Shown here: in pieces, positions 10,606 to 27,916 of the stretch
Position numbering within the stretch: position 1 is the first letter of the stretch
How the letters are laid out: each line of letters starts with the position of its first letter
DNA from: Desulfobacterales bacterium
GTDB lineage: Bacteria; Desulfobacterota; Desulfobacteria; Desulfobacterales; JAHDSC01
Direction of reading: 5' to 3'
DNA length: 64,000 nt
Assembly: GCA_016931455.1 (NCBI GenBank)
Contig: JAFGES010000128.1
Coordinates: 1 to 64,000 of the forward strand
Notes under the pieces: model-generated
What the model was told of the DNA's origin: nothing
Databases searched by the model: none
What the model saw: the letters and a program-made list of their open reading frames with translations, nothing else
Position numbers and translations under genes: made by a program

Positions 10606-10642
10606 CCAGCAAATAAAAGGAAATTCTTACTAGTTCAATTAA

Positions 10643-10712
10643 ATTCAGGGGTGCCGTTGAGGCTGAGAAAATACCCTTTGAACCTGATCTGGGTAATGCC
10701 GGCGAAGGGAAA
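10643..10712 (+). promoter_or_regulatory. TPP riboswitch (THI element)
   Basis: The conserved THI-element core is present: GGGGTGCC, then GGCTGAGAAAATACCC, then GAACCTGATCTGGGTAATGCC, and GGCGAAGGGAA closing the structure. CUGAGA and the ACCUGAUCUGG block are the signature thiamine-pyrophosphate-binding loops. It precedes a terminator hairpin and then thiD plus the ABC transporter genes. High TPP should therefore shut down synthesis and uptake of the HMP moiety. Confidence 0.95.
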
Positions 10713-10732
10713 TATAAGACAATTTTTCAAGG

Positions 10733-12429: not shown

Positions 12430-13153
12430 CTGCATTGCCTTGGCAGTGGTTCTATTGATTCTTGCGATTTGGGAGACGGCATGCAGGGGATTTTCCATAC
12501 CCGACTTTATCCTGCCCACCCCTAGTCGAATAATGGTGGTTGCTGTTTTACAGGCACCGCTTTTGTTGCGCCATGGCGCAATCACGGGTCTTGAAATTTT
12601 GATTGGGATAGGTTTATCGCTTCTCATGGCCGTACCTTTGGCAACGCTCATGTTTGCCCATCGATCGCTGGAAAAGGCCTTGGCCCCTTTTCTTGTGGTT
12701 TCACAGGCGGTTCCGGTCTTTGCACTCGCACCGCTTTTGGTCATATGGCTGGGATACGGGATCGCAAGCAAGGTTCTGATGGCTGCCATTATTATTTTTT
12801 TCCCGATAACAGTCAGTCTGCTGGAAGGTTATAAAAGCTGCGGAAATGACTATATCATGCTTTTTAGGCTGATGGGTGCTGGTTTTTGGCGAACATGGCG
12901 CCTGTTATACTGGCCGTGGGCCCTGCCTTATTTTTTTGCGGGGCTGAAAGTCGGAGTCACCGTCGCAACCATCGGTGCCGTCATCGGTGAATGGGTCGGA
13001 GCGCAGGGTGGCTTGGGCTATTTAATGATTCAGGCGAATGCCCGATTAAACGTCGAAATGGTATTTGCAGCTATCTTGTGGTTGTCGCTAATGGGCCTTT
13101 CCATGTGGGCACTGGTAGGCATTTTAGAAAGAAAAATTATTCGCTGGAGATAG
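12416..13153 (+). CDS. thiX: ABC transporter permease, ThiX-like
   Basis: 245 residues with about six transmembrane helices. It belongs to the binding-protein-dependent permease family used by SsuC, TauC and ThiX. The cytoplasmic coupling loop (EAA-type) is around MLFRLMGAGFWRTWRLLYWPWALPYFFAGLKVG. The start overlaps the end of the ATPase gene, and the binding-protein gene follows 26 bp after its stop. It forms the membrane channel of the pyrimidine-precursor importer in the inner membrane. Confidence 0.85.
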   Translation: MKWSSCIALAVVLLILAIWETACRGFSIPDFILPTPSRIMVVAVLQAPLLLRHGAITGLEILIGIGLSLLMAVPLATLMFAHRSLEKALAPFLVVSQAVPVFALAPLLVIWLGYGIASKVLMAAIIIFFPITVSLLEGYKSCGNDYIMLFRLMGAGFWRTWRLLYWPWALPYFFAGLKVGVTVATIGAVIGEWVGAQGGLGYLMIQANARLNVEMVFAAILWLSLMGLSMWALVGILERKIIRWR

Positions 13154-13179
13154 GAAATAAAAGGAAGGAGAACGAGTTA

Positions 13180-14133
13180 ATGAAAAAAATTTTTAAAAAA
13201 CATATTATTGCAACGGTTGTTTTGTTTATGCTGCTGACGGTGTTGCCGGTGGGTGCTGCTGAAAAGATTACCCTTATGCTGGATTGGTTTCCTAATATTG
13301 ATCATCTACCCTTATATGTTGCACAGCAAGAAGATTACTTTAAGGATGCGGGACTGACGGTTCAAATTCTCAGCCCTTCAGACACTACCGATGCCCTGAA
13401 GCTGGCGGCTTCAAACAATGTGGATCTTGCGGTTTCATATGCTCCTCAGGCGATCATGGGCGCTTCCAGCGATCTGCCTGTAAAGGTGGTGGGCCGGTTG
13501 GTTGAACATCCTCTCAGTGTACTTTTGTTTTTAAAAGGAAAAGGCATTGAAAAACCATCGGATCTAAAGGGAAAAACCATCGGCTACACCGTGCCCGGGA
13601 TGATGGATATCCTGACGGAGGCGTTTACGAAGATCAACGGCATTGAAAATTATGTTCCCATCAATGTTGGGTTTTCCATTGTGCAGTCTTTGACGGCAGG
13701 GAAGGTGGATGCAATCATGGGGCCATACAAAAATTATGAAACCATTGCCTTGGAAGAAAAAGGGTATGCGGCCGGCTATTTCGAACTGACCCAATGGGGG
13801 ATTCCGGATTATGATGAACTTGTTTTTATTTGCGGAGCGGAGACTTTGAAGAAAAAAACACAAGCGGTTCAAAGTTTTGTACATGCGGTTGAGCGTGCGA
13901 TTTCCGAAACCCGACAAAATCCGCAAAAGGCGCTTGAAAGTTACTTTAAAGCGGTTCCTGAAGCCCCAAGAGGCATGGAGACCCAAGCCTTTGCCATTAC
14001 CCTGCCGCTGTATGCATCCCACCAGCGCCTTGAAAATCAACGGTGGCAAAAATTTGCCGATTTTGCGCTGAAATTCGGTTTGATTGAAAAAAAAGTGGAT
14101 GCTCAAGTACTGTTTGAGTCCCAGATGGAGTAA
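13180..14133 (+). CDS. thiY: ABC transporter substrate-binding protein, ThiY/NMT1-like
   Basis: 317 residues. A signal peptide (residues 1-24, LLTVLPVGA) is followed directly by ITLMLDWFPNIDHLPLYVAQQEDYFKDAGL, the hallmark start of the NMT1/THI5-like fold. The fold binds HMP-type pyrimidines or related small molecules. The DTTDALKLAASNNVDLAVSYAPQ and GKVDAIMGPYKNYE segments line the cleft. I chose ATG at 13180 because AAGGAG lies 9 nt before it. The open frame continues upstream inside the permease gene and is not real. It is the periplasmic receptor of the riboswitch-controlled importer. Confidence 0.88.
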   Translation: MKKIFKKHIIATVVLFMLLTVLPVGAAEKITLMLDWFPNIDHLPLYVAQQEDYFKDAGLTVQILSPSDTTDALKLAASNNVDLAVSYAPQAIMGASSDLPVKVVGRLVEHPLSVLLFLKGKGIEKPSDLKGKTIGYTVPGMMDILTEAFTKINGIENYVPINVGFSIVQSLTAGKVDAIMGPYKNYETIALEEKGYAAGYFELTQWGIPDYDELVFICGAETLKKKTQAVQSFVHAVERAISETRQNPQKALESYFKAVPEAPRGMETQAFAITLPLYASHQRLENQRWQKFADFALKFGLIEKKVDAQVLFESQME

Positions 14134-20756: not shown

Positions 20757-20816
20757 AAAAAAGAACAGAGAAACAGAGTCCAAAGTATCAGAGATCAGAG
20801 TAAAAAAATTATGGGG
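20757..20816 (-). promoter_or_regulatory. Conserved 3' flank of target 1, next to the variable repeat
   Basis: This 60-bp segment covers the stop codon and 3' untranslated region of target 1 and matches 25528-25587 beside target 2 at 57 of 60 positions. The TR shares no similarity beyond its first few bases here. It follows the expected IMH-like (initiation of mutagenic homing) end of the variable repeat. It contains three copies of the pentamer CAGAG but no obvious hairpin. A role in retrohoming target recognition is inference. Confidence 0.55.
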
Positions 20817-23800
20817 AAAGCACCACCCGAAAACCGATGAGGTCGAACCGGAGGACAGGGTAGCCCCCGTTGCGGCAAGCGCAGCGAACGTCCGCAGCAT
20901 TGAGGTAGAACGAGCCACCCCGCAGCACACGGCGCATCTCATTTCCCGCCTTCGGGTTCTCTCGTCCATCATCCGGATTATATGGGTAATGATAAGCGGG
21001 TCTTATCCAGTCCTTGCCCCACAAACTCCTCGTCCACTCCCACACATTACCTGCCATGTCCAGGCAACCGTACGGACTCTGTCCGTGCGGAAAACACCCG
21101 ACTGCACTGGTATTTCCAATCCCGGTATTCAAATAGTTGGCAAAATCCGTATTCGGCTTTTCACCCCAGGGATAAACCCGTCCGTCTTTTCCCCTGGCTG
21201 CCTTTTCCCACTGCGCCTCACTGGGCAAAGTGATCCGCCATGGCCCGTTTTTCTCATCACCCGCTTTGAGCAGTGTTGCCAGAGGCTCCGGAGTATTTTC
21301 CCAGTTCCGCAATGTTTCCGTCAACCATTCACAATACCTGAGGGCGTCGTACCAGGTTACATCCACGACAGGGTGATTATCCACACCCTTGAGACAATCC
21401 GGATTTTCCGGCTCGTAGTTGGTAGCATCGACAAAGGCCCTATACTGCGCGACTGTAGCCGGATATTTCCCTATGTAAAAGGTTGGAAGTATAACGGTAT
21501 GTTGCGGCCGTTCATTTTCCCTTGCATCCTTATCGTCTTTCTCGTCGCTCCCCATTTTGAAGGGTCCTTCCGGAATCTCAACAAAACCGAGTAGATTATC
21601 GGTGCACAAATACCAGGCATCTGCACGAAAGATAGGATCGCCCAGCATGGACAGAGCCCGGCCGGCCTCGGCTCTTTCAAGCGGGGTAAGGTCGCTCGCC
21701 ATCAGATCCCGCAAGCGGGGAATCAGCCGCTTGAGGTAAGACTCTCCACCATCCGGGCTTTCAGTGTCCCTTTCAACCGTATCCCGCCCGGACAGAGCCG
21801 CCATCTGACCGGACCAGAGGCTTGTCCTCCATTCAACCTCGTTTGACGGCAATGCATTTGGACACAGTCCGTAAGCCAAATCCAAAAATGTTTCTTCACT
21901 CCTGCGGTTGAATAGAAGTTCTTCAGCTCCGAGTTGGGCAGCCACCTGCCAATAATCTCCTTCCGCGGCCTTTCGTCGATATTCCCGATCGATGTTTCTA
22001 CCACGGACCATATGACATCCTGCCAGGTATTCCTGAAAAGTGCGATGGGGGAAACCATAGATTTGAGGATGACCTTCTTCAGATCCTCCACCATGGCCGA
22101 CAATAAGCCCCGTCCTTTTGTCTATATAATCGATGAATTCTGCAGCACAACCGGCATTCTCAAGATATTGCCGGTCTTCTAAGATCGTCAGAAGATCACC
22201 ACGTGAAAGAAGCCCGACCTCTCTTCCTTTTGACTGTTCCTGATGGGCTTTGTAGGCTAGACGCTCCACTATAGGTCTGAGTCGCAAGTCATCCCCAAGA
22301 ATTTCAGCCAAAGCATCGGAAACAGGGAAACCCTTCCGTTTCTGCCAGCGGTTGAGAAGCACCTGTACCGCTATATCATACAAACGTACCCTTTCTTTAG
22401 GGAGTCCGACCTCTCTTTGATGGATAATGGCCATGGTCGTCATAAGCATGGGATTGGATGCCAAATCTATAAGCCCTTTAGAAAATGCAGCGCGCTGCAG
22501 ATCTTCCGTCAAGTCGGCGACCTTACTGCAATCTATCCGTTCCTGGACCGCTTGGGCCTCGTACCACGCATCTATGAATCGGGAGATCTTGCTTCGGTCA
22601 AAAGGCGCCAGGACGTGAGTTGGAAAACCGCTGAGGACCGTTTTTCCAATATAAGAACGAATGCGACAGGTCACAATTACATGCCCCACGGACCCATACT
22701 CATCCGATAGGGCTTCAACCGCCTCCCGTGCCAAGACACGTAGTTCCACGGGAACTTCGTCCATGCCATCGAAAACCATCAACACGCTCCCATCATCCAA
22801 TGCCTTATCAATTGCCTGATTCAGGCCATCGGCTCTGTGTTCGGTCTGATCTCTAACCCACTGTTCTCGGACAATTTTCAATAATTTTCTGCGCCTTTGG
22901 TCTTTCGATATCTTTTCACGCCTTAAATCTTGCAGGACCGGCGATAACTCGCTCAAGGAAATGAAAAGGGGCAGCGTGTTCCCCGGCCATTTTGGGGGAG
23001 CAGGTTCCAGATCGAGACCTGAAGAAGCGAGCATTGCCGAAAGCTGTTTCACAAAGGTACTCTTACCACTACCCGGATCGCCCAAAAGAACCAGTCTGGA
23101 ATTTTTTGTTGCTGCATCCAGGGCACTCAAGGGTCTTTCTTGGGAATTTTTATCAAAGACGTCCTCCGAAAATTTTTCTTTCCTCTCCCGCCTCTCTTCT
23201 TTTGAAAGCGGTACACGGCTCTTGGTATCCAGTTCTATGTATAATTGTCTAAGACTGATTTCATTGCAACCATCTTCGTCGCCGCCCAGGGCTGCAAGGG
23301 GGAGAACATCGCATCGACGAATAAGGCGCTTAAGATAACTTTTGCGGGCCTGAGTGATATTTTTATCATTTTCTCTATTTTCTCCTGATATTATAAAAAC
23401 AGGTTTATCGCCGGTGTTAATTACGCTGCCGTTACCTATGGTTTCGGCATTTACACCTCCATCGGTTGCGACCTTGGATTTTTCTCCGGTAACAACGATA
23501 TTTCGGGCTTTGATCTGGGAACGAAATTTTTCTAGATTTCCAAACTTTTCCAGCTCTTCCCGTAAAGTAGAGACAAACCAATCGTTTTGAGACTGTTCCA
23601 ATCTTTCCCGAGCTTGGGAAAAAGATTCCAGTTTTTCCAGAATGATATCCAATGGCTCTTGCAGGACGTGTCCCTTTTCCATCTCTGTTTCAATTTTCCT
23701 GGCGGCATCCGCTTCATCTTTCCAGGACTGAATGCGGTTTGCAACAAGGTTGGTACCCACTCCGGCCAGTATGGTGCCCAATGCTGCTCCGGAAGCAAGG

Positions 23801-23952
23801 GGGTCGGTTTTGGCTGCTTCAACAAAGGGCCACAGCGTGGCGGCTGAGACAAAGGCATAGATGGACTTCACACCGGCATTATGCATACGGGTTTTCCAGT
23901 TGACTAAACGTGATGCAAGTTTCTCCTTCCAGGTCTTTTCATCAAATGCCAT
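20809..23952 (-). CDS. NACHT-type STAND NTPase with C-terminal FGE/C-type-lectin domain; DGR target 1
   Basis: 1047 residues. The N-terminal region (1-285) has a weakly hydrophobic stretch (30-72) and coiled-coil-like helices. The NACHT NTPase domain starts near 286: Walker A GDPGSGKST (291-299), Walker B LMVFDGMDE (391-399), sensor-like VTCRIRSY. A helical region follows to about 780. The C-terminal domain (787-1047) is of the formylglycine-generating-enzyme/sulfatase-modifying fold ([52 protein letters not shown]), a C-type-lectin-like fold. Residues 1006-1046 are the variable repeat. The cysteines of catalytic FGE in the GGS...C...C loop are replaced by variable positions, so it is probably a ligand-binding domain. 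STAND NTPases with such sensors act as signal-triggered switches in prokaryotic defence; that role is inferred. The gene starts 3 bp after the RT stop. Confidence 0.92.
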   Translation of the reverse strand: MAFDEKTWKEKLASRLVNWKTRMHNAGVKSIYAFVSAATLWPFVEAAKTDPLASGAALGTILAGVGTNLVANRIQSWKDEADAARKIETEMEKGHVLQEPLDIILEKLESFSQARERLEQSQNDWFVSTLREELEKFGNLEKFRSQIKARNIVVTGEKSKVATDGGVNAETIGNGSVINTGDKPVFIISGENRENDKNITQARKSYLKRLIRRCDVLPLAALGGDEDGCNEISLRQLYIELDTKSRVPLSKEERRERKEKFSEDVFDKNSQERPLSALDAATKNSRLVLLGDPGSGKSTFVKQLSAMLASSGLDLEPAPPKWPGNTLPLFISLSELSPVLQDLRREKISKDQRRRKLLKIVREQWVRDQTEHRADGLNQAIDKALDDGSVLMVFDGMDEVPVELRVLAREAVEALSDEYGSVGHVIVTCRIRSYIGKTVLSGFPTHVLAPFDRSKISRFIDAWYEAQAVQERIDCSKVADLTEDLQRAAFSKGLIDLASNPMLMTTMAIIHQREVGLPKERVRLYDIAVQVLLNRWQKRKGFPVSDALAEILGDDLRLRPIVERLAYKAHQEQSKGREVGLLSRGDLLTILEDRQYLENAGCAAEFIDYIDKRTGLIVGHGGGSEEGHPQIYGFPHRTFQEYLAGCHMVRGRNIDREYRRKAAEGDYWQVAAQLGAEELLFNRRSEETFLDLAYGLCPNALPSNEVEWRTSLWSGQMAALSGRDTVERDTESPDGGESYLKRLIPRLRDLMASDLTPLERAEAGRALSMLGDPIFRADAWYLCTDNLLGFVEIPEGPFKMGSDEKDDKDARENERPQHTVILPTFYIGKYPATVAQYRAFVDATNYEPENPDCLKGVDNHPVVDVTWYDALRYCEWLTETLRNWENTPEPLATLLKAGDEKNGPWRITLPSEAQWEKAARGKDGRVYPWGEKPNTDFANYLNTGIGNTSAVGCFPHGQSPYGCLDMAGNVWEWTRSLWGKDWIRPAYHYPYNPDDGRENPKAGNEMRRVLRGGSFYLNAADVRCACRNGGYPVLRFDLIGFRVVLSP
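20815..20937 (-). repeat. DGR variable repeat 1 (VR1)
   Basis: 123 bp aligned without gaps to the TR. In coding orientation 18 of 19 differences are at TR adenines. The single exception is a T-to-C change at 20850 (coding strand), which turns Trp into Arg. Of 11 TR Asn codons, 9 are changed here (to Tyr, Leu, Asp, Gly, Tyr, Leu, Phe, Asp, Leu). Invariant blocks [14 protein letters not shown] and IGFRVVLS are kept. Confidence 0.95.
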
Positions 23953-23955
23953 CTT

Positions 23956-24720
23956 TTATGCCTTTCGCTGAAATGATTTGGTAAGTATTGCTTTTCTGAG
24001 CCCAACCGTGTTGCCGTAACGGACATGATTTACCCAACCTAACACACTTGCACTGATTCTTTCAATGGGCAATTGACCTGCCCTGTAGCTCTTGATCATC
24101 CCATTGAGCTTGCGGCGGTAATAGATGCCTTTTCGTCGTTTGAGTCTGCGTCTATGGGGAAAGACGATGAAACCGAGAAATGGGATTCCTTCCATATCGT
24201 AGGCATCAGCAAGCACTCCTTTTCCGCTCTCGAGAATACGATCGATCAGCCGGAGGACATCCGGATCATCGATTTTGGCCTCAATGAGATCACGCATGAT
24301 GCTATGATCTATGGATGGAAAGAACTGACGAATATCGCACTGAAGCAGAAAAGAGTATTTTCTGGAAAATTTCTGCACTTGGTTTAACGCTCGATGGGTC
24401 CCCTTACCCAGTCGGTTGGCATAGGATTCGTTTATGAAACTATTCTCGAAGATGGGTTCGATCAAGTTGCACAAAGCGTGATGAACGACACGGTCGAAAA
24501 ATGGTGCTGCTGAAATCAAGCGTTTCTTCGGCTCATGGATATAGAAATGGTTGTATGCGCCCGGCCGGTAGCTTTTATCCAGAAGGGTCCTCTGCAATAG
24601 GAGCAGGCTCTCTTCCAGACGGTGCTCAAAGGCTGCCACATTGGGATGACCACGCTTTCCCTTGCTTGCGCGGCGAAATGCAATCAGTAAGTTTTCCCAA
24701 GAACAAAGCGTTTCGAACAC
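23956..24720 (-). CDS. DGR-type reverse transcriptase with internal deletion of catalytic motifs
   Basis: 254 residues from the GTG at 24720 (GGAG 10 nt upstream); the DGR family is usually about 330-400. Present are the N-terminal ENLLIAFRRASKGKRG block (10-24), RPGAYNHFYIHEPKKRLISAAPF-type finger region (52-74), VVHHALCNLIEPIFENSF, YANRLGKGTHRAL (100-112), and motif A QCDIRQFFPSIDHSIM (127-142) with one catalytic Asp. The protein then passes from RILESGKGVLAD (161-172) directly to EGIPFLGFIVFPHRRRLK (177-194). The GxxxSQ motif and the YxDD box that carries the other two catalytic aspartates are absent, with the frame intact. The thumb region follows (LGWVNHVRYGNTVG). The gene lies between the TR and target 1, as expected for a DGR RT. 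It should be catalytically dead unless complemented in trans, or the deletion is an assembly artefact. Confidence 0.88.
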   Translation of the reverse strand: MFETLCSWENLLIAFRRASKGKRGHPNVAAFEHRLEESLLLLQRTLLDKSYRPGAYNHFYIHEPKKRLISAAPFFDRVVHHALCNLIEPIFENSFINESYANRLGKGTHRALNQVQKFSRKYSFLLQCDIRQFFPSIDHSIMRDLIEAKIDDPDVLRLIDRILESGKGVLADAYDMEGIPFLGFIVFPHRRRLKRRKGIYYRRKLNGMIKSYRAGQLPIERISASVLGWVNHVRYGNTVGLRKAILTKSFQRKA

Positions 24721-24916
24721 CAGCCAAGCACTCCATAGAGAAGGAAGAAAGGTCCTGCACCAGGGTTTGAACCTAGGGTGCAGGACCGTTGATATTTGCC
24801 CGGTCCGTCGGATCAAACCAACCGAACGCGGCCGGAAACAGGCTCCGCCATTTTTCGCCTCGGTCCGAAAGCCTCTGAATCAGGCCGTCGAGCATTTCCG
24901 ACGATTCGAAAAGCGT

Positions 24917-25039
24917 GGAAAGCACCACCCGAAAACCGATGTTGTTGTTCCAGTTGTCAGGGTTGTTCCTGTTGCGGCAAGCGCAGCGAACGTTCGCAGT
25001 ATTGTTGTTGAACGAGCCACCCCGCAGCACACGGTGCAT
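24917..25039 (-). repeat. DGR template repeat (TR)
   Basis: Non-coding 123-bp template between avd and the RT gene. In coding orientation it reads as a lectin-end sequence with 11 Asn codons (ten AAC, one AAT) exactly where VR1 and VR2 vary. AAC codons are the usual DGR design because adenine mutation gives many residues but never a stop. The invariant 3' end (24917-24940) is identical to VR1 and differs by one base from VR2; it is the IMH*-like part. The open frame that runs through it is not a gene. Confidence 0.95.
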
Positions 25040-25061
25040 GTGAGCCTGCCCCTCCAAAACA

Positions 25062-25080
25062 ACAGTCCCAATCGGACTGT
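25062..25080 (-). other. Short hairpin between avd and the template repeat
   Basis: ACAGTCC (25062-25068) and GGACTGT (25074-25080) can form a 7-bp stem with a 5-nt loop, 9 bp after the avd stop and 22 bp before the TR. There is no T-tract, so it is unlikely to be a terminator. It could be a structural element of the template RNA. Confidence 0.4.
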
Positions 25081-25088
25081 GGTTTCAA

Positions 25089-25436
25089 CTACTTAGAAGT
25101 TGCCTTATGCCAGCCACCCAGAAGACGACCTATTTCTGCCACCATGACCGATACGTGATTGTATTGACCGTTCGTGAGCCACCCCCACCGGGCCGCCAGA
25201 CGCAAGTAAACCTTCATTCTAGCCAGTGCCTCGTCTGTCTGGATCAGACGTTCAAGCCTTTCACGGCCTCTCCGAAGATTGGCCTCCTCCATCTTTTCCC
25301 TCAAATCAAAAGCGGCATCCAGGAGCCGCTTGGTAAATGTATGGCGGTGGGCCTTAGGAAAATTGTTGGTAACCGGCAGAAGCCATGTCAAAAGATCGAA
25401 ACTTCTTGTGAAGATCACCATTTCCTGGCCGGCCAT
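25089..25436 (-). CDS. avd: Avd accessory variability determinant (four-helix bundle)
   Basis: 115 residues, all-helical and basic, the usual length for Avd. Motifs: FTRSFDLLTWLLPVTNNFPKAHRHTFTKRLLDAAFDL (N-terminal helices, the FPK.....L pattern of the S23/Avd four-helix-bundle family) and ARMKVYLRLAARWGWLTNGQYNHVSVMVAEIGRLLGGW at the C-terminus. Avd forms a pentameric barrel that binds the DGR RT and the template RNA and is needed for cDNA synthesis. AAGGAG lies 5 nt before the ATG. It sits directly upstream of the TR, as in the Bordetella phage DGR. Confidence 0.92.
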   Translation of the reverse strand: MAGQEMVIFTRSFDLLTWLLPVTNNFPKAHRHTFTKRLLDAAFDLREKMEEANLRRGRERLERLIQTDEALARMKVYLRLAARWGWLTNGQYNHVSVMVAEIGRLLGGWHKATSK

Positions 25437-25527
25437 TTAAACTCCTTTCGCATACCCATTTCCTCCATTATTGCAATGATCATTTCATCGCCATATTTCC
25501 TATGGGCCTCAAATTACAAAAATCGTA

Positions 25528-25587
25528 AAAAAAGAACAGAGAGACAGAGTCCAAAGTATCAGAGATCAGAATAGAAAAATTATGGGG
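25528..25587 (-). promoter_or_regulatory. Conserved 3' flank of target 2, next to the variable repeat
   Basis: The counterpart of 20757-20816, with three mismatches in 60 bp, covering the stop codon and 3' untranslated region of target 2. Outside the variable repeats the two target genes differ much more in their coding sequence, so this short non-coding stretch is unusually conserved. Confidence 0.55.
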
Positions 25588-27751
25588 CAAGCACCACCCG
25601 AAAACCGATGTGGTGGTGCCAGTAGTCAGGGAGGTCCCTGCCACGGCAAGCGCAGCGAACGTACGCAGCACTGCTGCCGAACGAGCCACCCCGCAGCACA
25701 CGGAGCATCTGATTTCCTGCCTCCAGATCCTCTCGCCCATCATCGGGATTATATGGATAATGATACGCGGGGTTTTTCCAGTCCTTGCCCCACAGACTCC
25801 TCGTCCACTCCCATACATTGCCCGCCATGTCGCTTGCGCCAAAGGGACTGTCTCCTTTTGGAGAATACCGACCGACCGGTGAGGTGCCTCCTGTGCCACT
25901 TTCCGAACTGTTGAGTCTCGATGGGTCCCAGGTATTTCCCCAGGGAAAAATCCTTCCGTCCGTTCCCCTGGCCGCCTTTTCCCATTGGGCCTCAGTCGGC
26001 AGACGGTACTGCTTGCCGGTTTTTTTACGCAGCCACTCACAGTAGGCCACGGCATCATGCCAGGATACGTTCACTACGGGATGGTCACCCCTGTCTTCAG
26101 GATAATCCGAGCCTTCCCAACCCGAAGGGGGTTGATGGCCCGTGTCTTTCACAAAGGCCTGGTACTCGGCGTTGGTTACAGGATATTTGCCGATGGTGTA
26201 TTCAGGGAGTTCAATTTTATGTTGGGGTTTCTCATTGTCATTCGCATTTTTGTCGTCTTCATTTGAACCCATAAGAAATGTTCCCGCAGGTATGGAAACC
26301 AGTTGAGGTTCCATTACACCAACGTTGGCTGTTGATGGGGTCAATCCCGGAACCTCGGTTCTGCGGGTCAGGGTGAAATACAAACGGATTTCATCAGGCT
26401 TAAGACCTGTGAAATTGAATTCAACCCTCTCGGGCGGGTGCAGGATAAGCAGGCGTCTTACTGAATCCTTACTTAGAAAGGGGACCAAGACCGACGGCGG
26501 TTCCAACTTCTCCTTTTGTGCATTGTCTCCTTTCTCTATACTGAGACGGGACTGGCTGAGGTAATATTTCTCCAGATCACTCAGAAGATGAGGGGTGGCT
26601 TGCAGCCGGTTATAGAGTTCCGGATAGATATGTTGAATTGCAACCACTTTGGCAAGGCGAACGGGTTTAATGTCTCCGATTTGCCTTTTCGTGACCAGGT
26701 GCCAGAGAAAAAGAAAAACATTGATGGTGCGTTTGACCTGCCGCGGGTTGTTGCCCAAGGCCTCGGCAAACACCCTTGGACATTCTTCGTGAGGCCATTG
26801 CTCTATAAGACGGCTTACAAACTCCGTCATTTTGCCCTTTTCAATGGGAGGAATTCGAAAGGGGAGCTGGATAATCTTTTCAAGATACCTGGCTCCGGAG
26901 ATCAGAAATTCAGCCTTGCCCTCATCCGGCACGCCGAGTGCTTTTCCCAGCTCACGGTATTTGTTTTCAACAGCCCGTGTGATCACATCCTGGTCCAGTC
27001 CAAGCAGGAACACGCACCCCGGCACATCCAAGAAAAGCTTGATGGATTCAAGAACCTCCACCGCTTTTTCAGGGAGGCATCGATCAAGATCGTCCACAAA
27101 AACAACCAGACAGCGATTCTTTTTGACAATATGCTCATTCACCAGGGAGCGGAATTTATCCTGAAACTGATCGAGAAACTGCACCTGTTCGATGTGTAAT
27201 TTAGATCGCTCTCGATGGATGGCGGATAAGAGATTTTCAGCCGCGGATTTTTCACCTTTATCTTTCAACGCTTTCAACAGATCGGCGAGCATCTTTGCTC
27301 CCGGAATGAAGGATAGCCCGATTTGAAGCCCGCTTTGCCCCGCGCCGGCGGCAAGCTTGCCCCAGTCGATCTGCACCCCTCCGACCTTCTCCCTCTCAAC
27401 GCTCCGGTAAAGGGAGGTTTCAAGATCCTCCATCTTGGAAAGCGCATCCTTTTCATCCTGCTCCTCGATGGCCGCCTTCAAGGAACCGAGCACCTTGAGC
27501 AGCAGCGCCCGCCACAGGCTCTCTTCCCCTCCGTAGCGCCAGGGATCGAACCAGACCCCCTGACAGTGTTCGGGAAGTTTATTTTGCACCATCATCATTA
27601 AGGATGTCTTCCCAGAACCCCAGGACCCGAATAATCCCATGGTCAGCGGAGTTCTCGTGGATGGGTCGGAAACCATCTCCGCTATTGCGGCAACATAGGG
27701 TTCAAAATCCAGGAGATCACGGCCGGCCGGCAGGTCATCAAGAATACGCAT
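25580..27751 (-). CDS. KAP-family P-loop NTPase with C-terminal FGE/C-type-lectin domain; DGR target 2
   Basis: 723 residues. A KAP-type P-loop domain fills the N-terminal part: LTMGLFGSWGSGKTSLM (Walker A 42-50), GVWFDPWRYGGEESLWRALL, Walker B LVVFVDDLDRC (215-225), LFLDVPGCVFLLGLDQDVI, and NNPRQVKRTINVF, a KAP hallmark. The FGE/lectin domain spans 481-723 ([67 protein letters not shown]). Residues 682-722 form the variable repeat, with all 11 template Asn positions changed. KAP NTPases are often membrane-associated and recur in phage-defence systems; no clear membrane helix is seen here, though 147-162 is hydrophobic. I chose ATG at 27751 (AGGA upstream) over a TTG 6 bp earlier. It is the first gene of the cassette. 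Confidence 0.92.
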   Translation of the reverse strand: MRILDDLPAGRDLLDFEPYVAAIAEMVSDPSTRTPLTMGLFGSWGSGKTSLMMMVQNKLPEHCQGVWFDPWRYGGEESLWRALLLKVLGSLKAAIEEQDEKDALSKMEDLETSLYRSVEREKVGGVQIDWGKLAAGAGQSGLQIGLSFIPGAKMLADLLKALKDKGEKSAAENLLSAIHRERSKLHIEQVQFLDQFQDKFRSLVNEHIVKKNRCLVVFVDDLDRCLPEKAVEVLESIKLFLDVPGCVFLLGLDQDVITRAVENKYRELGKALGVPDEGKAEFLISGARYLEKIIQLPFRIPPIEKGKMTEFVSRLIEQWPHEECPRVFAEALGNNPRQVKRTINVFLFLWHLVTKRQIGDIKPVRLAKVVAIQHIYPELYNRLQATPHLLSDLEKYYLSQSRLSIEKGDNAQKEKLEPPSVLVPFLSKDSVRRLLILHPPERVEFNFTGLKPDEIRLYFTLTRRTEVPGLTPSTANVGVMEPQLVSIPAGTFLMGSNEDDKNANDNEKPQHKIELPEYTIGKYPVTNAEYQAFVKDTGHQPPSGWEGSDYPEDRGDHPVVNVSWHDAVAYCEWLRKKTGKQYRLPTEAQWEKAARGTDGRIFPWGNTWDPSRLNSSESGTGGTSPVGRYSPKGDSPFGASDMAGNVWEWTRSLWGKDWKNPAYHYPYNPDDGREDLEAGNQMLRVLRGGSFGSSAAYVRCACRGRDLPDYWHHHIGFRVVLAP
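25586..25708 (-). repeat. DGR variable repeat 2 (VR2)
   Basis: 123 bp aligned without gaps to the TR. Within the variable core 16 of 17 differences are at TR adenines in coding orientation. The exception is a C-to-T change at 25643, silent in an Arg codon. A further non-adenine difference at 25588 is at the edge of the repeat. All 11 TR Asn codons are changed (Gly, Ser, Ser, Tyr, Gly, Asp, Leu, Tyr, His, His, His). VR2 and VR1 differ from each other at most of these sites, so they were mutated independently. Confidence 0.95.
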
Positions 27752-27916
27752 GCTCAATTCCTTAACTAAGCGAAGTTGTCAATTTTTTCGCGCTTTTCCA
27801 TCATTTTAGGTCAAAGAAAAACCCTTTTCAGCCTTACCACCGGATATTGCCTTTGACAATAAAAATGTCGATCGGTTAAAATTCTTGATTAGATATCATT
27901 CCAATTCCATTAATCA

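Follow-up and report, generated by a model that had tools for sequence, protein, structure and literature searches.

The minus strand of the window, by which we mean the whole 64,000-nt stretch of DNA analysed, carries between positions 27757 and 20809 a diversity-generating retroelement (DGR) cassette in the order KAP-FGE gene, avd, template repeat (TR), reverse transcriptase (RT) gene and NACHT-like-FGE gene; all of its features given below lie on that strand. The first target gene (target 1, 25580..27757, with its start at 27751 or 27757) ends in a 127-nt variable repeat (VR2, 25586..25712) and is followed by avd, the accessory variability determinant (25089..25436), which is single-copy in the genome and was recognized by both NCBIfam (NF033474, 84.1 bits against a cut-off of 80) and Pfam (bAvd, 2.2e-20). 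Repeat alignment placed the non-coding TR in the avd/RT intergenic region, at about 24917..25043. The spacer between TR and RT (24722..24916), likely the 3' region of the DGR RNA, contains an 11-bp perfect hairpin (GGTCCTGCACC/GGTGCAGGACC), and the 369-nt fold of TR plus spacer gave a z of -3.3. An RT gene with a GTG start and ~254 aa (23956..24720) precedes the second target gene (target 2, 20809..23952), which ends in the 127-nt VR1 (20815..20941) and has homologues in many related DGR loci. A search of related genomes, as advised in the preliminary description of this locus, recovered the same target-avd-TR-RT-target order in four further loci (L029, L031, L050 and L062). Of the elements listed there, namely a single TR, avd, the RT gene and two VRs that each close a large gene on its 3' side, all are borne out by gene order, alignment and Pfam/NCBIfam matches, except that the RT is not intact, its catalytic block being gone. 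Immediately downstream of the cassette lies a pentapeptide-repeat gene (20707-19589) with a likely N-terminal membrane segment; we rejected it as a cassette member on its host-like GC content and its relatives in 0 of the 60 related loci.

Target 1 joins a KAP P-loop NTPase (aa 18-347; Pfam KAP_NTPase 7.8e-37, over cut-off) to an FGE/C-type-lectin domain (aa 483-722; FGE-sulfatase 2.2e-59), and target 2 joins a P-loop NTPase (~aa 276-430) to a domain of the same type (aa 790-1044; Pfam 9e-52), both FGE matches being far over cut-off. The NTPase of target 2 matched AAA_16 (2.8e-6) and NACHT (PF05729; 6.6e-5) under the Pfam cut-offs, and direct reading identified a P-loop (GDPGSGKST) and a Walker B-like stretch (MVFDGMDEV). 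Because its NACHT score falls under the Pfam curated cut-off (23.2 bits against a gathering score of 26.7), we name this protein NACHT/STAND-like; of the KAP and NACHT modules on a common FGE/C-type-lectin end proposed earlier, KAP and FGE are thus upheld by Pfam and NACHT is not. The C-type-lectin-like nature of the two ends was borne out by comparison with known proteins: the FGE domains of both targets match the Treponema DGR target TvpA (PDB 2y3c), and an AlphaFold model of the KAP-FGE tip, of moderate confidence (mean pLDDT 69.9), matched structures of formylglycine-generating enzymes (FGE) in foldseek with E values of 1e-18 to 1e-12.

The KAP domain of target 1 also aligns with QatA, the ATPase of the anti-phage Qat system (6e-55; 8.4e-46), but target 1 reaches only 187 bits against the curated cut-off of 600, its C-terminal half is FGE, and its neighbours are DGR genes, with no qat-like genes among them. 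Judged by their domains, the two targets look like switch proteins with the lectin tip as sensor. A function as sensors in conflict or antiviral responses has been proposed for NTPase-lectin proteins of this kind by Dore et al. (2024, PMC10907252) and by Kaur et al. (2020, PMC7159879), and by analogy the window's targets may have a sensing or defence role.

Over 127 aligned nucleotides, VR1 differs from the TR at 18 of 29 template adenines and at 3 of 98 other sites (Fisher p 1e-11), and VR2 at 16/29 and 3/98, respectively (p 6e-10); half (3/6) of the non-A differences sit at the extreme 5' edge of the aligned block. The differences are adenine-specific in both VRs, from which we infer that mutagenic homing occurred in this lineage, via the usual DGR route. 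Every TR adenine occupies a first or second codon position, and AAC accounts for 10 of the 18 codons with an adenine. Eleven adenine sites are mutated in both VRs and only 3 of these carry the identical base, implying that VR1 and VR2 were written separately. No further TR or VR copies were found across the whole genome. The 3' ends of the two target genes share 73-95% identity in their last 300 nt and 50-60% further upstream, a pattern that fits a common lectin end set on different NTPases, as described for PB-PSB1, where a shared lectin end is joined to different NTPases (Dore et al. 2024, PMC10907252).

Alignment of the RT reading frame with the RT of 8ub7, its best PDB match, is split into two blocks (10-177 and 255-313), and the part between them is missing. 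Comparison with an intact Chloroflexota RT (L027) located the loss precisely: L027 residues 2-176 match 24717-24193 and residues 270-339 match 24192-23983, the two segments directly adjoining at a junction at 24192..24193, such that the window's RT has no counterpart of residues 177-269, an in-frame loss of ~93 codons. The reading frame is kept and the C-terminal part is intact. An alignment with 14 relatives showed that motif 4 (LPIGNLTSQ) and the catalytic YxDD (YVDD in L027) are gone, whereas functional DGRs are recognized by an RT with both an (I/V/L)GxxxSQ motif 4 and YxDD, and most RTs among the 60 related loci have an in-frame YxDD. Because both motifs lie in the missing block, we file the cassette as a degenerate DGR and not as a working one.

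No other DGR RT was detected in the 97.35%-complete genome, either by RT profile search or with an intact DGR RT as query. The remaining RVT_1 matches, a stand-alone RT on contig C36 and a group II-type RT present in two pieces on contig C73, were rejected as a second DGR RT, neither being of DGR type. The two parts of the C73 RT, which is of the group II intron type (C73:38989-43152), lie ~3.5 kb apart with a recombinase ORF in between. With an RT devoid of its active site and no substitute RT in the assembly, the targets appear frozen in this genome and the DGR is presumably inactive at present. Another RT could lie in the ~2.7% of the genome that is possibly missing, and the deletion, seen in a single assembly, may be particular to one strain or reflect an error of assembly. 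The earlier proposal that a single TR diversifies two unrelated switch proteins accordingly stands for the shared template and for past homing, as the adenine-specific VRs attest, and is not supported for present activity.

The cassette has a GC content of 50.7%, compared with 41-42% in the surrounding contig. A genome of the same family is syntenic over a fabH-ispF-cysS-uvrB-uvrC block, with synteny stopping on the cassette side, and searching it for the RT gave no match. The closest relatives of the RT, at up to 68% identity, come chiefly from Chloroflexota metagenome-assembled genomes (MAGs), with further related RTs in Acidobacteria, Nitrospirales, Myxococcales and proteobacteria (Accumulibacter, gammaproteobacteria), while the best RT within the window's own order reaches 52% identity. 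These features suggest that the cassette was probably acquired horizontally. We rejected a phage origin, since two scans of viral contigs, with a reach limited to close relatives, returned no relatives.

Loss of the RT was also observed in other members of this group. A Chloroflexi MAG (L023:188-1012) encodes an RT with in-frame loss of nearly the same catalytic block at different breakpoints; in an Acidobacteria DGR (L050:1626-6884) the RT has an out-of-frame deletion while both NACHT-FGE targets, TR and avd are kept; and the L071 RT carries a larger deletion. A FastTree phylogeny of the N- and C-terminal RT parts (modest support) grouped L023 with the intact L035 and not with the window, and the window and L023 RTs are not sisters. 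We thus rejected a single ancestral deletion common to both, that is, a conserved dead RT, since the breakpoints differ and L023 groups with an intact RT; the intact RTs lying between the two argue for recurrent decay instead.

Non-A divergence between TR and VRs bears on when the window's RT was lost. In a long-dead cassette the non-coding TR would have drifted, and the low divergence found here (1/69 and 2/69, or 1-3%, a small number of sites) suggests that the loss was probably recent or that intact alleles still circulate. Related loci are variable in this measure: intact relatives mostly show 0-4.5% with a few at 8-14%, and values of about 10% were obtained for L050 and L072, both of which have a broken RT. 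The same reasoning has been applied to other inactivated DGRs (Schillinger et al. 2012, PMC3521204).

We consider it likely, reading from the sequence, that the locus is a degenerate and probably acquired DGR cassette. Horizontal transfer would have brought it in, and its single TR would until recently have diversified the C-type-lectin tips of a KAP and a NACHT/STAND-like switch protein. An in-frame deletion would then have taken out the RT catalytic core while avd, the TR, both VRs and both target genes stayed intact, most likely leaving the two sensors fixed at their last variants and still able to work as proteins. The low non-A divergence, which resembles that of active relatives, and the in-frame nature of the lesion are also what would be expected if the DGR were fully active and the deletion were an assembly error or a minority allele in a mixed population; intact and disrupted RT alleles have indeed been found to coexist in one aggregate (Dore et al. 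2024, PMC10907252). We regard this as unlikely, given a clean junction and the absence from the rest of the genome of any repeat of the RT gene by which assembly might have been misled.

Continued diversification of both targets in trans, with the DGR RT encoded at another site in the cell, has a precedent in Thiohalocapsa PB-PSB1, where trans action best explains some DGR loci (PMC10907252), but the assembly contains neither another DGR-type RT nor a second TR, and we give this alternative little credence. It is very improbable that the core-deleted RT has been retained in a different function, such as to bind Avd or the template RNA or to block homing, as a regulated off state. That at least two DGR RTs (the window's and that of L023) have lost the same catalytic block in frame, while what remains of the gene is readable, would be consistent with such a function; against it, the two deletions are not the same and intact RTs are interspersed in the tree, indicating independent events, the L023 contig has no detectable targets or avd, and the deleted RT gave only a poor model (pLDDT 62). 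If the cassette is indeed degenerate, it appears complete but has lost its engine, and it would illustrate how a pair of hypervariable sensors can become fixed in nature once diversified. The recurrence of RT loss with targets kept (the window and L050) further suggests that selection may tolerate or favour the freezing of a good variant.

Clade 5D cellular DGRs consist of one TR, avd, RT and two targets (Dore et al. 2024, PMC10907252), each target having an NTPase in its centre (NACHT, nSTAND1 or sometimes KAP) and one FGE/CLec domain at its C terminus, and degenerate loci with a missing or pseudogenised RT have been described in the same study. Our locus resembles them in architecture, carrying two single-CLec NTPase targets on one TR, and differs in pairing one KAP with one NACHT-like target and in having lost its RT core by a simple in-frame deletion and not through a transposon. 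The sharing of one template by a KAP and a NACHT target, singled out as notable in the preliminary description, is therefore not a new arrangement. DGRs with inactivated RTs and A-only VR differences were likewise reported by Schillinger et al. (2012, PMC3521204), who read them as very recently inactivated; these share the intact TR/VR and broken RT but arose by nonsense mutation, frameshift or insertion, in contrast to the in-frame internal deletion in the window. With published precedents both for one TR serving two NTPase-lectin targets of the NACHT or KAP type and for inactivated DGR RTs, the locus belongs to a kind already described, of which it is a degenerate example.

The DGR of Bordetella phage BPP-1 (Guo et al. 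2011, PMC3240598) shares with the window the avd-TR-RT order, adenine-specific TR-to-VR change and a VR at the 3' end of a CLec-type target, but the two differ in what follows the VR. BPP-1 has a GC-rich hairpin right after its VR and no word array; in the window, folding of the DNA after the two VRs gave no hairpin (z 1.15 and -0.16) and a simple scan found no GC-rich stem of at least 6 bp within 140 nt of either VR, and we therefore rejected a BPP-1-like hairpin here. The same scan found such a stem within 140 nt of 23 of 37 VRs, so the hairpin is not universal.

What stands directly 3' of both VRs, and not after the TR, is an array of five short words spaced by 7, 8, 7 and 8 nt, composed of CTCTG/CTTTG after VR1 (20764..20800) and of CTCTG/TTCTG/CTTTG after VR2 (25535..25571). 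The stretch around the arrays is 93-95% identical between the two targets, above most of the preceding coding sequence. Similar arrays follow VRs in L025, L028, L034, L042, L050, L055, L062, L072 and L080, and in related loci with a clear TR/VR pair we found 5.6 CTG per 90 nt downstream of VRs, compared with 1.9 after TRs (p 1.5e-11) and 1.7 after other ORFs (p 3e-22), the loci being related and the counts thus not independent. Gaps of 7, 8 or 9 nt dominate between successive CTGs. In cyanobacterial plasmid DGRs (L116-L118 and L120) a similar array is built of CCCTTTT/ACTTT words, as it is in several DGRs of the window's order. No earlier description of a post-VR array was found in a search of openly accessible papers.

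The array may have a role in homing, for example in target recognition. More specifically, and tentatively, it may be an undescribed target-side recognition element of cellular DGRs that marks the copy to be overwritten, instead of or together with a hairpin, with CTCTG used in the Chloroflexota-type lineage and CCCTTTT-like words in the cyanobacterial and some other lineages. Avd is a homopentamer, and the five array units could correspond to a five-fold partner such as Avd. There is a somewhat better chance, though still short of even, that the CTCTG array is unrelated to homing and represents either an intergenic repeat of a generic kind or an element of mRNA 3' ends, as a few similar heptad arrays occur at other gene ends in some of these contigs: four or more words were found at 10 of 636 non-FGE ORF ends, at least 3 of these being or overlapping target genes. 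Less easily reconciled with a generic repeat are the chain counts in related DGR loci, in which four or more words followed 31 of 37 VRs but only 1 TR and were reached in 0.4% of shuffles, with a word picked after inspection of the sequences. The strict pattern occurs once in the window's whole genome (20764-20800), the array is found on the sense strand only, and other DGR lineages place a different word at the same site.

Were the array confirmed as a homing signal, it would provide a handle on VR/TR discrimination in most cellular DGRs, so far understood only for the hairpin type of phages, and would let remote targets be found by sequence; the recognition reading, if true, predicts as such the KAP-FGE and other FGE genes of L101, L102 and L105. 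These three loci of the window's order carry NTPase-FGE genes (the KAP-FGE of L101 being 61% identical to the window's) that end in CTG arrays with no RT nearby, and may be remote or orphan targets of a DGR. In the L101 genome, the DGR RT adjoins a VR bearing the other array word (L107). Intergenic heptad arrays unrelated to VRs (GATTGG, ACTGATC and GGTAATT) were also seen on Chloroflexota contigs (L026:2325-2400 and 13400-13500, L042:15930-16000 and L079:3750-3830).

Elsewhere in the window, a TPP riboswitch (10637-10727) lies upstream of an NMT1/THI5-like substrate-binding protein gene (12991-14133), a combination with a probable role in thiamine precursor uptake.
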